This document shows, one piece after another, positions 20,569 through 25,566 of a stretch of DNA of 25,944 nucleotides. Made by a program: the position numbers and the translations under genes. This DNA is from a virus. The stretch spans positions 1 to 25,944 of the IMG/VR virus record IMGVR_UViG_3300006789_000132; one strand, 5' to 3'. Each line of letters starts with the position of its first letter. Within the stretch, counting starts at the first letter, position 1. Below the pieces are notes generated by a model. That model saw only the letters and a list, made by a program, of their open reading frames with translations. It searched no databases and was not told the origin of the DNA.

Positions 20569-21120
20569 ATGGCAGACAACAAATTTTGGACAGATGTTTC
20601 GGCGGAGCCAAAAAGAAAATTTAGATTTAAGGTAACAATCTTTTCAGATAGCATAGCATGGTACGCTAAGTCGATCACGGCACCTTCATTTGAAATTAGC
20701 TCTGTGGAGCACCACTTCAGTGATCACGTTTTCAACTATCCCGGAAAAGTTAAATGGAATGACGTTTCAGTCACTCTTATCGACCCGGGTGGTTCTCAAG
20801 ATGTAGTTAACCAAACTCTATTTCTTATTGAATCAGCAGGATATAGACTTCCTAAGCTCGGTGACCTAGAGGGAGATGCTTTTGATACATTTTCAAAATC
20901 AGAATTGGTAACCAATAACGGACAGGTCTCACTTATCGCAACAGACGAAAGCGGGCAGGACTTGGAAACTTGGACTCTCAATAATGCCTTTATCACATCT
21001 GTTAAGTTTGGAGACTTTGACTATTCTTCTGAAGATATGAGAGAAATTGAACTTACATTTAAGTATGATTGGGCTTCTTGTGACGTTGCTGGTGGCGGAA
21101 ACTACTTCGAAAAGGGGTAA
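20569..21120 (+). CDS. 19: Tail tube protein, gp19-like
   Basis: A 183-residue protein directly after the sheath gene, as in T4 (18-19; T4 gp19 has 163 residues). The tube-fold landmarks are FRFKVTIFSDSIAWYAKSIT near the start, the central VKWNDVSVTLIDP strand pair, and the C-terminal ETWTLNNAFITSVKFGDFDY followed by SSEDMREIELTFKYDWA. These match the myovirus tube family, whose hexamer rings stack to form the inner tube. AAGGAG lies 9 nt before the ATG. The next gene is a divergent paralogue. Confidence 0.9.
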   Translation: MADNKFWTDVSAEPKRKFRFKVTIFSDSIAWYAKSITAPSFEISSVEHHFSDHVFNYPGKVKWNDVSVTLIDPGGSQDVVNQTLFLIESAGYRLPKLGDLEGDAFDTFSKSELVTNNGQVSLIATDESGQDLETWTLNNAFITSVKFGDFDYSSEDMREIELTFKYDWASCDVAGGGNYFEKG

Positions 21121-21123
21121 ATA

Positions 21124-21771
21124 GTGTGGTGGTCTAATATCGTAAATCATCAAATGTCCTATAACTTTGAAGTACGCATAGGAAACAAAGATATTGGTAT
21201 TTTATGGGATGCTAAAAGAGTAACCCTTCCAAAGTATGATGTAGAAGTAAAAGAAGACCTCGTAGGTAACGTAAGCTTATACTCAACTGGTAAGGGTACT
21301 TGGAACCCTGTTGAGATTGAAATATACGATATAAAACTAATAACCGGCATTGGTATCAATAAAGAAGCATACATGTCTAATGCCCATAGGGTGTTTGGAA
21401 CACTAGTTGATACCAAAGGTTCAGAAAAAGTCACCGGAAAAGGTTCTTTTGATATCAGTGATGGCTCAACATTCACAGAATTACATGAGGATGGACAGGG
21501 GCAAGTGCGTAAGGTTACTGAAATAACAATTGAAAAGTTTTACGCCCAACGTTTCAAAACCGCAGAAGAGTTTTCAGATGATCCAACTTTGGCGGCTAAT
21601 ATGGGCGTCGGACCAGATCTAGACGGTCAAATTTCAGAAACTTGGACTTTGATAAATCCAGTTCTAAAAGGCGTTGACTTCGGGACACTTGACTATTCTT
21701 CCGAAGAGATAAACACAGTCACTATGATTTTTCATTACGAATATGCTATTTTAGGCAAAACTAACACATAA
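21124..21771 (+). CDS. Second tail-tube-family protein (215 aa, GTG start)
   Basis: A paralogue of the preceding tube gene. YNFEVRIGNKDIGILWDAKR matches the first tube strands, GTWNPVEIEIYDIK the central ones, and ETWTLINPVLKGVDFGTLDY then SSEEINTVTMIFHYEYA the C-terminus. It has an insert at residues about 85-145. The GTG at 21124 is favoured over the ATG at 21154: AAAGGGG lies 6 nt upstream, and the Trp near the N-terminus then aligns with that of the first tube protein. It begins 3 nt after the tube stop. Candidates are a second tube subunit, a tube-baseplate junction (gp48/gp54-like) or a tube terminator (gp3-like); sequence alone does not decide. Confidence 0.8.
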   Translation: MWWSNIVNHQMSYNFEVRIGNKDIGILWDAKRVTLPKYDVEVKEDLVGNVSLYSTGKGTWNPVEIEIYDIKLITGIGINKEAYMSNAHRVFGTLVDTKGSEKVTGKGSFDISDGSTFTELHEDGQGQVRKVTEITIEKFYAQRFKTAEEFSDDPTLAANMGVGPDLDGQISETWTLINPVLKGVDFGTLDYSSEEINTVTMIFHYEYAILGKTNT

Positions 21772-21785
21772 CAAGCGAGGTAAAT

Positions 21786-22625
21786 TTGAGTAATAGAAAT
21801 GAGGGTAGGATGGTAGCCCCTAATGTACCACAACCAAAAGAGCAGAAAAGCGGATTGCTCGACTTTGTATCCCCAACACAGTTTGTAGACCTTCCATCAA
21901 AAGGTCTTGGATATCCAGAGTCACATCCATTTTTTGACAATGATTCTGTCGAGATTAATTTTATGACAGCCAAAGATGAAGATATATTAAGTTCGGAAAC
22001 TTTATTGAGAAAAGGGATAGCCGTTGACCGCTTTCTAGAGAATGTTTTGGTGAACGAAAATGTGGCTGTTGATAGTATCTTAATAGGAGACAAGAACGCA
22101 ATTCTAATCGCAGCGAGAACATCCGGATATGGAAATCTTTATGAAACCCAAGTCTTATGTCCGAATTGTAATGCAAAGAATGATCTAATGTTCGATCTCA
22201 ACAAACAAGAGATACACCATGGCGATATACCAGAGGACAGTGAAATTACAAGAAACGAGAATGGAAACTTTATCCTAGAACTTCCTCTTTCAAAGGTAAC
22301 ACTCGAATTCAGGCTATTGACTGGAAAAGATGAAAAGAGTATGATCAAAAGAATGACTGATGCTAAGAAGAAGAAAACTGAGTCTACTTCTATTACTGAT
22401 CAGTACAAGATGATGACTGTTTCAGCCCAAGGAGAGACCGATAGGAAGCTTATTTCAAAGTTTATTGACCTTATGCCCGTTGGGGACTCAAAGCTCCTTA
22501 GAAAAGCATACAAGGCTGTTTCTCCGGACGTAAAAATAAAGGACGACTTCGAATGTACATCTTGCGGTTTTGAGCAAGAATTGGAGGTTCCGTTCGGCGC
22601 GGACTTTTTTTGGCCTAAACAATAA
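21786..22625 (+). CDS. 26: Baseplate/tail assembly protein, gp26-like, with zinc ribbon (279 aa)
   Basis: The product resembles the T4_baseplate (gp26) family: FVDLPSKGLGYPESHPFFDN, then a helical region (DEDILSSETLLRKGIAVDRF, residues about 62-80), and IAARTSGYGNLYETQVLCPN. Two CxxC pairs, Cys125/Cys128 (CPNC) and Cys257/Cys260 (CTSC), could bind one zinc. The end GADFFWPKQ is family-typical. T4 gp26 (208 residues) helps baseplate hub assembly; in related phages this gene and the next short frame precede the tape measure and act as tail chaperones. TTG is used as start, with GCGAGG 5 nt upstream; an ATG at 21810 is an alternative. A T7 run near the 3' end could allow a +1 shift into the next frame. 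Confidence 0.7.
   Translation: MSNRNEGRMVAPNVPQPKEQKSGLLDFVSPTQFVDLPSKGLGYPESHPFFDNDSVEINFMTAKDEDILSSETLLRKGIAVDRFLENVLVNENVAVDSILIGDKNAILIAARTSGYGNLYETQVLCPNCNAKNDLMFDLNKQEIHHGDIPEDSEITRNENGNFILELPLSKVTLEFRLLTGKDEKSMIKRMTDAKKKKTESTSITDQYKMMTVSAQGETDRKLISKFIDLMPVGDSKLLRKAYKAVSPDVKIKDDFECTSCGFEQELEVPFGADFFWPKQ
22605..22611 (+). other. Candidate +1 frameshift site (T7 run)
   Basis: Seven T (frame-0 codons TTT TTT TGG) occur 12 nt before the gp26-like stop codon. From here the +1 frame is open into the next small gene (FFGLNNKYMESV). A +1 slip of the P-site TTT would re-pair perfectly and yield a fused product. Confidence 0.3.
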
Positions 22626-22629
22626 ATAT

Positions 22630-22803
22630 ATGGAATCTGTCTACGAGCAGATCTTCAATTTAATGCATCATGGTAACTGGAGTTTTTCTGAAGCTTATAG
22701 TTTACCAGTTGGTCTAAGATACTGGTTTTTCGACAGAATGATCAAACAATTTGAAGAAGAAAGAAAGGCACAAGAAAAAGCTACAAAAAAGGCCCGGAAG
22801 TAA
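22630..22803 (+). CDS. Small tail-assembly chaperone-like protein (57 aa)
   Basis: A 57-residue protein: ESVYEQIFNLMHHGNWSFSE, then AYSLPVGLRYWFFDRMIKQF and a Lys/Glu-rich tail. The pattern W-F-x-x-AY-x-LPV-x-R-x-WF recalls the short partners of gp26-type genes placed before tape measures (gp51-like in some T4 relatives, though T4 gp51 is much longer). The ATG at 22630 is 4 nt after the gp26 stop and has no SD, so coupling or frameshifting is likely. The frame is open back to the T7 run, so an in-frame start at 22570 was not chosen. Its stop codon lies inside a terminator hairpin. Confidence 0.6.
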   Translation: MESVYEQIFNLMHHGNWSFSEAYSLPVGLRYWFFDRMIKQFEEERKAQEKATKKARK

Positions 22804-22851: not shown

Positions 22852-23214
22852 ATGATACTAGATTTTACAAATAAGAAACTTTTAACGGAAAGTTGGATGA
22901 GGTCACTTGCCTCTTGGAACAAAACTTTCCTAAAATACCTTTATGATAAGGATGTTACCCTAACGGCTGATGTTAAGGGTTTAGACATGATGAAAGAGGA
23001 AGATGAAGACAATACTTTGACCTTCGTTATCCGTGGAGAAGAGAGAGATGTTCAAGCATATGCTCGAGCTATTATGGCGGAGAAAGAGTATTTGGATGCA
23101 TATATGCATTTTGGAGAAGATCACTTCCAATCCAAGAAAAAGAAAAACTTGTTAGATCAAGCAGTTCAGCAGTTTGAACAAACAACAGGCATTAAGTGGC
23201 CTTTCAAAGACTAA
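22852..23214 (+). CDS. Unknown protein upstream of tape measure (120 aa)
   Basis: I do not recognise it. It is soluble with alternating charged and hydrophobic segments: SWMRSLASWNKTFLKYLYDK near the N-terminus, then a strand-like stretch NTLTFVIRGEERDVQAYARA (residues about 55-75), an alpha-helical part, and an end QFEQTTGIKWPFKD. The size and position between the gp26-like chaperones and the tape measure suggest a tail-assembly factor or a small baseplate component. Translation likely uses GAGG upstream of the ATG. It is the first gene of the last transcription unit in the window and is followed after 12 nt by the tape measure gene. Confidence 0.72.
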   Translation: MILDFTNKKLLTESWMRSLASWNKTFLKYLYDKDVTLTADVKGLDMMKEEDEDNTLTFVIRGEERDVQAYARAIMAEKEYLDAYMHFGEDHFQSKKKKNLLDQAVQQFEQTTGIKWPFKD

Positions 23215-23226
23215 GAGGGTCGCTAA

Positions 23227-25566
23227 ATGTCAGAAGAAAAGAAAGAAGAGGTCAAATTACAAGAGAAGCTCAATGAACTATTGAAAGAGCAGTCAGTGCT
23301 GACAAAAGATCAAATCTCTGATCTTAGGAGCATGAATAGCCTCAATCAAGCATATTTTGAAGAAAAAAGATCGCAAGAAGCCATCCTTCTAGAGATTGCA
23401 GCCCTGAAAGAAGCAGCACTTACAGACGAAGGAACTCTCCTTGAAACACATCTTAAGGTCTTGAAGGAAGAAGCCGAATTAAGCGATGAAGAGCTTGAAA
23501 AATTAGAAAAGTCCGAAGACAAAGCTAAGACCCTATTGGAAATCCAAAAAGAAAGAAAGAGACTAAGACAAGAAGAGAAAGAGTTGTCTGATGAAATAGA
23601 AGCTACAGTCGGTGGAATAGCGACGAAAATGGGCATTGGAAATTCATATTTGACAAAAGGTGTGCTTAAGTACAAAAACATGGCCAAGAATATCCTTAAA
23701 AGCAAAAAAGGACAAGACGCCTTTGTTAGATCAATGCAACAAGCCTTTAGTGTTGGAAATCTTCTCGGAAGGATAGTTGAAAATACAATCGCATTAGCCC
23801 TTGCAACCGATAAAGCATCAGCAGAGTTTGCCAAAGCAACCGGAACAGGTCGAGACTTTCAAAGACAAATAGCTCTTATACAAAAAGAATCGATAGAAGC
23901 GAGAGTTGGTTTAGACAAAGCAGCCGGCGGTTTACAGGCTGTTAACCAGCAGCTTATTGGTGGCGCCCAGTTGTCTAAAGACCTACAAAGAGAGATAGGC
24001 TTACAAGTAGCTACATTTGACCGATTAGGCTTGGAATCTTCAAAGGTAGTAGCAATAATGAACGATATGCAAGCATCCATGGGACTCACAGCAGAAGAGT
24101 CGTTGGAAGCAACAAAAGCATTATCAATATCAGCAGTGCAACTGGGTATCGGACCAAAGACAATGGCAGAAGGATTTCAGAAAGCATCGGGTACTCTTGC
24201 AGTTCACGGTAGAAAGTCAATTGAGGTATTCAAAGGCTTGGCGGTGGCTGCTCGAAATGCAGGCACTTCTGTTGATTCGCTACTGTCTATCGCAAATCGT
24301 TTTGATACCTTCTCAGATGCTGCTGATGCCGCAGGCAAGCTGAACTCGGTCTTGGGTTCAACAATGTCAGCAACTGAAATGTTAATGATGACTGAAGATG
24401 AAAGAATTGAAACACTTATAAAAACTGTTAATGGTCAAGGTAGAGCATTTAAAGATATGGGTCGTTTCGAACAAAAAGCAGTGGCTCAAGCCGCCGGTAT
24501 CAAGGACATGGCTGAGGCTAATAGGATATTTGGAATGTCCTTGGGAGCATATAAGCAACAACAAAAAGAAACACAGAAAGCCGCCGATGTTCAGGCACAA
24601 TTCGCAAAAGCCGTTAGCGCAACAGTTCCGATACAGGAACAATTTGCATTTATGCTTCAAGAGATGGCTATGAACGGAGAGGTTGTTAATCAGATTGTAG
24701 ACGCCATGCACCTTGGGTTGTGGTTGTTTCAAAAGGTTGTTTGGGTTTTATCAAATGATGTTACACAATTTGTTTTGGTCCTTGCTTTGTTTGGTAAGGG
24801 CTTGGGGATGATCCCCGGAGTTTCACTACTGGCCTCATTGGCTATAAAAGGGCTTGCTAAATCATGGTTGGGTGCAAGCGTTGACGTAGGAACTGGGAGC
24901 AAAATAATTGCTGGTTCGGGGCCTACGATAGGAGCAGGTCTTTCGGCTGCTGTTGGGCCAATGCTGGCCTTTGGTGCAGCTGCTTTAATGATTGGTGGTG
25001 GTATTGGTTTAGCAGCTTATGGCTTGTCATTGCTTGTTACTTCTCTTGCGCCACTTTCCCTTCCGGGAATGCTAGCTGTTTCTCTTGGAATTCTTGCCAT
25101 TGGAGGAGCTGTTGGTGTTTTAGCTTTTGGATTAGGTTCTATGGCAAATCCTATTGTTGCGGCTGGGATCGGACTTCTTATTGGACTTGGAGCTGGTGTT
25201 GCTCTGTTAGGAGTTGGTGTATCTATGGCGGCTAACGGTTTTGAAAAGATGGTAAATAACATATCTCAAGTCGGAACAGCAGCTATTGGAATGGACAACT
25301 TGGTAGCCGGTGTTCAGCAGTTATCTTCCGCACTAGATAGTATAACTGGAGATCGTGAGGTCAAATTCAAAACAACATTGCAGAACCTTGCTCTTATAAC
25401 ATCAGGCAGAGCAGCAGGTATGACAGCAGCATCGGCTGGTGTAAAAGAGTTCAGTGCTAATATAGAAAATAGCGTAAAAAACAACATCGAGCTTGTAGTT
25501 AGGTTGGATGAAACTGATATTAGAGCTTATATTGAAAAAGTTCATCATAATATCGGTGAGACTTAA
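23227..25566 (+). CDS. Tail tape-measure protein (gp29 analogue, 779 aa)
   Basis: Residues about 1-140 are a charged coiled coil (KLNELLKEQSVLTKDQISDL, then EELEKLEKSEDKAK). Residues about 150-490 are helical, Ala/Gln/Lys-rich with recurrent LGxxxx motifs. Residues about 495-670 are a run of hydrophobic Gly/Ala-rich segments (WVLSNDVTQFVLVLALFG, PMLAFGAAALMIGGGIGLAA, GLLIGLGAGVALLGVG), the hallmark of tape measures that insert into membranes on infection. Placement after gp26/chaperone genes and after the tube genes agrees. T4's counterpart gp29 has 590 residues; a longer protein predicts a somewhat longer tail, roughly 115 nm at 1.5 angstrom per residue, an estimate only. The ribosome site is GAGGG just upstream. 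The protein is not similar enough for me to assign a T4 number. Confidence 0.82.
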   Translation: MSEEKKEEVKLQEKLNELLKEQSVLTKDQISDLRSMNSLNQAYFEEKRSQEAILLEIAALKEAALTDEGTLLETHLKVLKEEAELSDEELEKLEKSEDKAKTLLEIQKERKRLRQEEKELSDEIEATVGGIATKMGIGNSYLTKGVLKYKNMAKNILKSKKGQDAFVRSMQQAFSVGNLLGRIVENTIALALATDKASAEFAKATGTGRDFQRQIALIQKESIEARVGLDKAAGGLQAVNQQLIGGAQLSKDLQREIGLQVATFDRLGLESSKVVAIMNDMQASMGLTAEESLEATKALSISAVQLGIGPKTMAEGFQKASGTLAVHGRKSIEVFKGLAVAARNAGTSVDSLLSIANRFDTFSDAADAAGKLNSVLGSTMSATEMLMMTEDERIETLIKTVNGQGRAFKDMGRFEQKAVAQAAGIKDMAEANRIFGMSLGAYKQQQKETQKAADVQAQFAKAVSATVPIQEQFAFMLQEMAMNGEVVNQIVDAMHLGLWLFQKVVWVLSNDVTQFVLVLALFGKGLGMIPGVSLLASLAIKGLAKSWLGASVDVGTGSKIIAGSGPTIGAGLSAAVGPMLAFGAAALMIGGGIGLAAYGLSLLVTSLAPLSLPGMLAVSLGILAIGGAVGVLAFGLGSMANPIVAAGIGLLIGLGAGVALLGVGVSMAANGFEKMVNNISQVGTAAIGMDNLVAGVQQLSSALDSITGDREVKFKTTLQNLALITSGRAAGMTAASAGVKEFSANIENSVKNNIELVVRLDETDIRAYIEKVHHNIGET

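Follow-up and report, generated by a model that had tools for sequence, protein, structure and literature searches.

A predicted +1 programmed frameshift joining a gp26-like chaperone gene to a small downstream reading frame in an IMG/VR viral sequence and its relatives

The frameshift between genes G and T of phage lambda is described as widely conserved in long-tailed phages with the exception of T4, and a +1 shift is considered very likely for the myovirus HSTV-2 in the same source (PMC5009743). For T4, the listed hub assembly chaperones include both gp26 and gp51; the latter is reported as absent from the final particle, and later genetic work is cited for the presence of gp26 in the hub (PMC3004832). 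The signals that direct a ribosome forward in a programmed manner are little understood, and according to PMC10885494 no general motif for forward shifts has been identified. In a 70S system, an upstream hairpin or a Shine-Dalgarno (SD) duplex beside the E site is reported to raise +1 and to lower -1 shifting, and a spacing of 8-11 nt is given for SD-stimulated -1 shifting (PMC6321510). Here, a viral locus was analysed in which a gp26-like gene and a small ORF in the +1 frame very probably form a chaperone pair of the lambda G/GT kind, expressed through +1 programmed frameshifting, as judged from sequence comparison.

The window, i.e. the whole stretch of DNA analysed, corresponds to the 25,944 bases of IMG/VR record IMGVR_UViG_3300006789_000132, and the features of the locus are collected in Table 1. 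The genes appear in the order tube (from 20569), tube-like (from 21124), gp26-like (from 21786), small ORF, 120-aa ORF and 779-aa ORF, with two overlapping ORFs lying between the tube gene and the gene in the tape measure position, as found for lambda G and T. The second tail-tube-like gene (21124-21771), beside the gp19-like tube gene, has a GTG start and matches phrog_4542 (2e-11). The 120-aa ORF (22852-23214), which separates the small chaperone ORF from the long one, presented no family match. For the 779-aa ORF, the family searches gave no match at a useful level, and its position and length suggest that it is the tape measure gene. The gp26-like gene matched PF12322 (T4_baseplate, gp26) with 44.4 bits against a curated cut-off of 24.5, and the baseplate hub family phrog_150 at 3.8e-14.

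Table 1. Positions of the features of the locus in the window, including predicted elements
Feature	Position	Strand	Basis
gp26-like putative tail/hub assembly chaperone, zero-frame product, 279 aa	21786..22625	+	PF12322, phrog_150, AlphaFold2
Internal Shine-Dalgarno GGAGGT, 16 nt 5′ of the first slip codon	22583..22588	+	
5′ hairpin UCCGU-UCGGC-GCGGA, ending 1 nt short of the slip site	22589..22603	+	-5.2 kcal/mol
Putative slip site UUU_UUU_UGG, with UUU in the P site re-pairing at +1 UUU and a Trp codon as A-site codon	22605..22613	+	
+1-frame extension, putative T-like domain, 63 codons and stop; free ATG at 22630 optional	22612..22803	+	
Predicted frameshift product, GT-like, 338 aa	21786..22803	+	translation; profile alignment
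Tail tube gene (gp19-like)	20569..21120	+	PF06841 1.8e-7
779-aa ORF in the tape measure position	23227..25566	+	position and length

The gp26-like protein was modelled with AlphaFold2 (pLDDT 92.7), and its structure was compared with 733 aligned chains, 22 of which reached a Z of at least 2. Among the 18 listed entries, the top one was 3fgx (residues 155-255, Z 5.0), followed by the HK97 tail assembly chaperone 2ob9 (residues 159-248, Z 4.4, rmsd 3.4 over 78 residues). Since these Z-scores are low and Foldseek returned nothing significant for this model, the chaperone-fold matches are considered supportive only. The zero-frame product would have a role like that of lambda gpG. The model of the small domain had three helices (pLDDT 85), and no significant fold match was found for it in the PDB. 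Sequence searches of the PDB gave nothing at E 0.1.

The gp26-like frame ends with the codons GAC TTT TTT TGG CCT AAA CAA TAA, and the run of seven T that the sequence-only reading of this DNA had reported at 22605-22611 was found in these final codons. That reading had also placed the small frame in +1, open from the run, which agrees with a +1 frame that is open from approximately 82 nt before the gp26 stop and stop-free through 22803, and a P-site TTT can fully re-pair after a step in that direction, as had been proposed. The ATG of the small ORF, 4 nt downstream of the gp26 stop, had been described as lacking an SD; its match to the anti-SD was just 3 nt, compared with 4-9 nt at 20 of 21 other gene starts, hand-picked from the ORF list of the window. 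That reading did not mention an SD inside the gene, a hairpin on the 5′ side of the run, the fact that the -1 heptamer is avoided, or the cyanophage -1 version of the locus.

According to the mechanism proposed, the majority of ribosomes would stop at 22625 and yield the 279-aa chaperone, while some would pause at UUU_UUU_UGG, where the A site holds the Trp codon. The P-site tRNA-Phe would then move one base forward, from UUU to UUU, and the slipped ribosomes would produce the 338-aa protein with a C-terminal helical T-like domain. Moreover, the internal SD and the hairpin would provide a duplex beside the E site, favouring +1 and opposing -1 movement, in keeping with the effect reported for the 70S system (PMC6321510). 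The open frame and its conservation, the missing starts, the SD and hairpin, the synonymous constraint and the lack of -1 heptamers are visible in the sequences, whereas the slip, its efficiency, any stimulation by the SD and hairpin and the function as a chaperone are inferred.

The conservation of this layout was examined in relatives. The window-type set comprised 86 loci, namely the window together with 5 and 80 loci from two scans of viral contigs, and it is skewed to close relatives because the second scan, with at least 600 candidates, was limited to the best 80. After removing sequences with at least 90% DNA identity, 81 non-redundant loci were considered, window included. The immuto-type set, which is more distant, was obtained with a protein of Flavobacterium phage immuto as the query; 79 of its 80 loci were usable, and the addition of L007-L009, which are named or public phages, brought the total to 82. 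The small ORF overlapped the end of gp26 in the +1 frame in all 86 window-type loci, and in 85 of them this frame extended at least 40 codons from the A-site codon, the remaining one (L081) ending at a contig edge. In the immuto-type set the +1 frame was stop-free past the slip in 82 out of 82 loci, two of which end at contig edges. The same direction was found in all 12 usable of the 13 SP-15-like loci (L180-L192), in six out of six Streptomyces-type loci (L234-L239), in the 18 MAG-contig loci examined out of 19, and in the named phages L010, L012 and L013.

The +1 frameshift that had been suggested to join the gp26-like and small frames is supported by these comparisons as a conserved programmed shift across relatives. 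In particular, relatives keeping both genes and either losing the run or having stops before the small gene, which had been named as the outcome that would speak against it, were not encountered, as 86/86 window-type and 82/82 immuto-type loci retain a slip site followed by a +1 frame free of stops. The expected conservation of the run held for the slip site but not for the exact seven T, which were replaced by TTTCTTT or TTCTTTT in 6 of 81 loci. The six bases preceding TGG were TTTTTT in 75 of the 81 window-type loci, TTTCTT in three and TTCTTT in three, and the immuto-type slip sequences were TTTTTT (62), TTTCTT (19) and TTTCTA (1) among 82. TGG followed the slip in all 86 window-type loci, the slip itself having been located by TGG in one count, and among the 82 immuto-type loci the A-site codon was TGG in 76, TAC in three and TTC in three. 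These variants also bear on transcriptional slippage as the cause of the frame change, for which a homopolymer of seven T would be suitable. However, the TTCTTTT and TTTCTTT variants, whose longest T runs are 4 and 3, keep the fusion frame, and such slippage would need neither an SD nor a hairpin, and we regard it as extremely improbable.

An assembly error was set aside as the source of the frame change, as divergent relatives, some of them with broken T runs, keep the frame. A search with tblastn using the small protein of one relative against the phage collection gave zero matches. In Microcystis phage Mel-JY01 (L007:4734-4970), the region overlapping the gp26-like gene in +1 is annotated as a separate hypothetical gene. 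It is likely to be the shifted extension, and the record may need a joined CDS.

The small ORF could alternatively be a separate gene, translated by termination and reinitiation at the ATG located 4 nt past the gp26 stop. The closeness of stop and start is compatible with this, and the ATG present at 22630 appears at the same place in 40 of the 81 window-type loci; the other 41, however, have I, S, N, T, A, Q or L there. No ATG was found between the slip and the conserved VYE motif in 41/81 window-type loci, the count over the first 10 codons being likewise 41/81, and 11/81 had no ATG, GTG or TTG at all from the previous stop onward. In the non-redundant immuto-type loci, ATG was missing from the first 10 codons in 72/74, and all three start codons were missing from the previous stop to codon 10 in 21/74. 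These relatives present a downstream ORF without its own start, reached by a predicted slip near the end of the first, while the window itself has an ATG. Weighing the other way, 42/81 loci have a candidate start with an SD of at least 4 nt, which precedes the slip in 30 and follows it in 16, both kinds being present in some loci. The Tyr codon between the slip and the ATG was TAT in 40 loci, TAC in 40 and TTT in one, i.e. only synonymous changes were found in 80/81, and the sequence ahead of the ATG is therefore constrained as a protein-coding region in the +1 frame. Synonymous constraint falls on the slip and the codons ahead of it rather than on the ATG. Reinitiation as the explanation of the small ORF is accordingly held to be very improbable, and it may coexist with the frameshift in some phages.

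Returning to the +1 shift, the identity of the slipping codon was considered. The codon before TGG was TTT in 78 of the 81 loci, CTT in three and TTC in none, a preference for TTT beyond chance given that 74% of the Phe codons elsewhere in the gene are TTT (binomial 1e-10, kinship ignored). The first slip codon is TTC in three window-type loci. Because the second slip codon is always TTT or CTT and never TTC, while the first can be TTC, the second Phe codon is the likelier P-site codon; for L008 and L010 the first fits better. The base before the run also showed a strong bias, being C in 66, G in 11, A in two and T in two of the 81 loci (C or G in 77/81), and the Asp codons at this place were GAC in 57/59, compared with a usage of 33%. 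The -1 heptamer T_TTT_TTN was found in none of the 81 window-type and none of the 74 non-redundant immuto-type loci, and in the two loci with GAT (L021 and L045) the heptamer is broken by TTC as the first slip codon. A -2 shift would lead into the same frame with one extra residue, and re-pairing from UUU to UUU would be possible on the seven T. Nevertheless, the -2 partners mismatch at TTC_TTT_TGG, TTT_CTT_TGG and CTG_TTT_CAG, where +1 works or nearly so (pairing judged by eye), and a -2 shift is therefore given hardly any weight.

The strongest synonymous constraint in the gene was found at codons 267-273, directly before the slip codons 274-275, with an observed/expected ratio of 1.44 (the best window of seven codons) versus a median of 0.97. 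Two elements agree with this peak, the internal SD and the hairpin that follows it. For the SD, a match of at least 6 nt was present in 76/81 window-type loci compared with 1.4% of 2025 control windows. The codon for Glu267 was GAG in 62/63, versus a GAG usage of 36%, and several loci without GGAGG at codon 267 (L018, L022, L045 and L070) had AGGAGG about 6 nt upstream instead. In the 69 loci with both elements, the distance from the SD to the first slip codon varied from 15 to 26 nt, with the hairpin in between, and this spacing was no more uniform when the hairpin was looped out (sd 3.0 vs. 3.1). The internal SD could also be seen as a true ribosome-binding site, with the small protein starting at a +1-frame codon before the slip. 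Such a start, 3-12 nt after an SD of at least 6 nt, was found in 14/81 loci, always upstream of the slip, five of them being ATG (L004, L030, L037, L060 and L067), but not in the other 67, the window included; in the 14 loci translation could also begin from the internal SD. Moreover, this would leave the TTT_YTT constraint, the C or G before the run and the hairpin unexplained, and it is given very little credence.

Concerning the hairpin that would act together with the SD in the +1 shift, the mean minimum free energy in the 81 loci was -5.4 kcal/mol versus -1.5 for synonymous shuffles (mean z -2.84), while 14 control places in the gene gave mean z values from -0.56 to +0.22. Individually, 60% of the loci had a P-value of 0.05 or lower and 40% fell short; the hairpin of the window taken alone (-5.2 vs. 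-4.2) showed a small excess that was not significant. The stem sequences diverge, as in GCCC-UUUG-GGGC (L014), CUGCCG-UUUA-CGGCAG (L022) and GGUUCC-UUUC-GGAACC (L068). An adjacent stem of at least 4 bp was present in 78% of the 81 loci, compared with a mean of 36% and a maximum of 60% at the control places, a measure that separates less well than folding, and 11/81 lacked an adjacent stem of at least 3. RNAalifold on an ungapped alignment of 80 sequences gave no consensus fold. The register of the stems differs from locus to locus, and each sequence was therefore folded singly and compared with its synonymous shuffles. In the window, a longer fold at 22579-22660 (-18.4 kcal/mol, z -1.40) would compete with the hairpin and pair the SD region. 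On the 3′ side, no consensus structure was found among the relatives, the value for 22612-22691 of the window being z 0.55. Both elements were weaker in the immuto-type set, with an SD of at least 6 nt in 38/74 loci versus 6% of 1258 control windows, and a mean hairpin z of -1.2 compared with -0.01 to -0.48 for the controls.

Furthermore, counterparts in the opposite direction were found at the homologous site. A cyanophage-type set (L245-L324) was collected with gp26 of S-SSM7 as the query, taking the best 80 of at least 600, of which 79 were usable. The small ORF, annotated as gp51 in S-SSM7, was in the -1 frame, with T_TTT_TTC in 79/79. After the removal of redundancy 70 loci were left, all of them with T ahead of the run, and an SD of at least 5 nt was located exactly 10 nt upstream in 40 and elsewhere in eight, the match being shorter in 22. 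No ATG was found in the first 14 codons in 6/70, and 4/70 had no start at all; since most keep an ATG, reinitiation is a live alternative in the cyanophage-type loci. A -1 frameshift from gp26 to gp51 is considered probable in these phages from the layout of their sequences. In a set of 41 distant gp26-like loci on GC-rich viral contigs (L193-L233), GGAGG lay exactly 10 nt before T_TTT_TTG or T_TTT_TTA in 30, with the small ORF in -1, six had other T_TTT_TTN layouts, three lacked the heptamer and two were cut by contig ends. A cruder call by the longest frame assigned 31 of 39 GC-rich loci to -1, six to frame 0 and two to +1. PA5oct, Atu_ph07 and RL2RES also presented T_TTT_TTN with the small frame in -1, whereas LR756511 and Pseudomonas Cygsa01 had no such slip site and an ATG overlapping the stop.

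The relationship with T4 was studied by means of family and profile matches. Both T4 proteins matched PF12322 (gp26 8.8e-64, gp51 3.9e-52), the match of gp51 stopping at residue 201 of 249, and they are encoded by two separate genes on opposite strands (L006:5803-7229). The extra C-terminus of T4 gp51 aligns with the shifted domain through intermediates. In the profile comparisons, the window-type fusion matched the -1 fusions (E 1.2e-20), and these matched the T4-type gp51 (3.6e-9). Against a profile in which T4-type gp51 and -1 fusions were combined, the fusion aligned over its whole length at 5e-19, a value helped by the -1 fusions. The direct comparison of the fusion with T4-type gp51 gave a weak match (E 0.0012, probability 19), and the small domain by itself gave none of significance (E 0.22). 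As the direct match is weak, the link to T4 rests on the -1 fusions as intermediates, and the replacement of the frameshift by a gene duplication in T4 is a hypothesis, suggested by the PF12322 family shared by its gp26 and gp51.

Taken together, we are inclined to read the T4-type gp26/gp51 pair as the lambda G/GT pair, with one FF slip site at the end of gp26 that is read in -1 by cyanophages and by some GC-rich systems, and in +1 by the relatives of the window. Which way the ribosome moves would depend on the base preceding the T run and on the position of the internal SD, with a hairpin added for +1, and T4 would have duplicated the gene into gp26 (short) and gp51 (permanently fused), which would explain its listing as an exception. 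If so, the +1 cassette would be a natural example of forward slippage driven by an SD together with an E-site hairpin. One forward layout is common to about 200 natural loci, and its -1 counterpart at the homologous site offers a matched comparison, which makes the rules of shift direction directly testable. The +1 direction, apparently used by a large group of phages related to T4, is of a rare kind, and the SD motif and usually the hairpin have been kept over long evolutionary times. A gp26/gp51 frameshift was not mentioned in the titles or abstract openings searched, a coverage from which subscription papers were mostly missing. With respect to the literature consulted, the novel elements are the predicted forward shift of these phages, its combination of SD and hairpin, and a homologous site seemingly tuned to -1 in cyanophages.

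Compared with the known systems, the locus resembles lambda G/GT in that two ORFs overlap ahead of the putative tape measure gene, the predicted slip falls close to the end of the upstream one, and a longer fused product would result. The shift is -1 in lambda and +1 in the window, but the -1 direction is not strictly defining for the G/GT type because HSTV-2 very likely uses +1. Other differences from lambda are that the upstream protein of the window is a larger PF12322 protein and that an SD and a 5′ hairpin flank the slip. PF12322 is shared with T4 gp26 and gp51, although T4 has separate genes and needs no shift. With the CUU_UGA +1 shift of prfB (RF2), as described in PMC3711429 and PMC6321510, the locus has in common the forward P-site slip on YUU_U and the internal SD, CTT_T being the slip sequence in 3/81 window-type and 19/82 immuto-type loci. 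However, prfB has a stop codon in the A site, whereas the window-type loci have a Trp codon, an SD 15-26 nt upstream with an intervening hairpin, and a putative phage chaperone as the product. Finally, the engineered hairpin stimulators described by Huang et al. 2018 (PMC6321510) place a hairpin beside the E site, a position where the one predicted here would likewise be expected to raise +1 and lower -1 shifting; those were reporter constructs, the strong one having a 12-bp stem, while the present loci have a short hairpin of natural origin that is accompanied by an SD.
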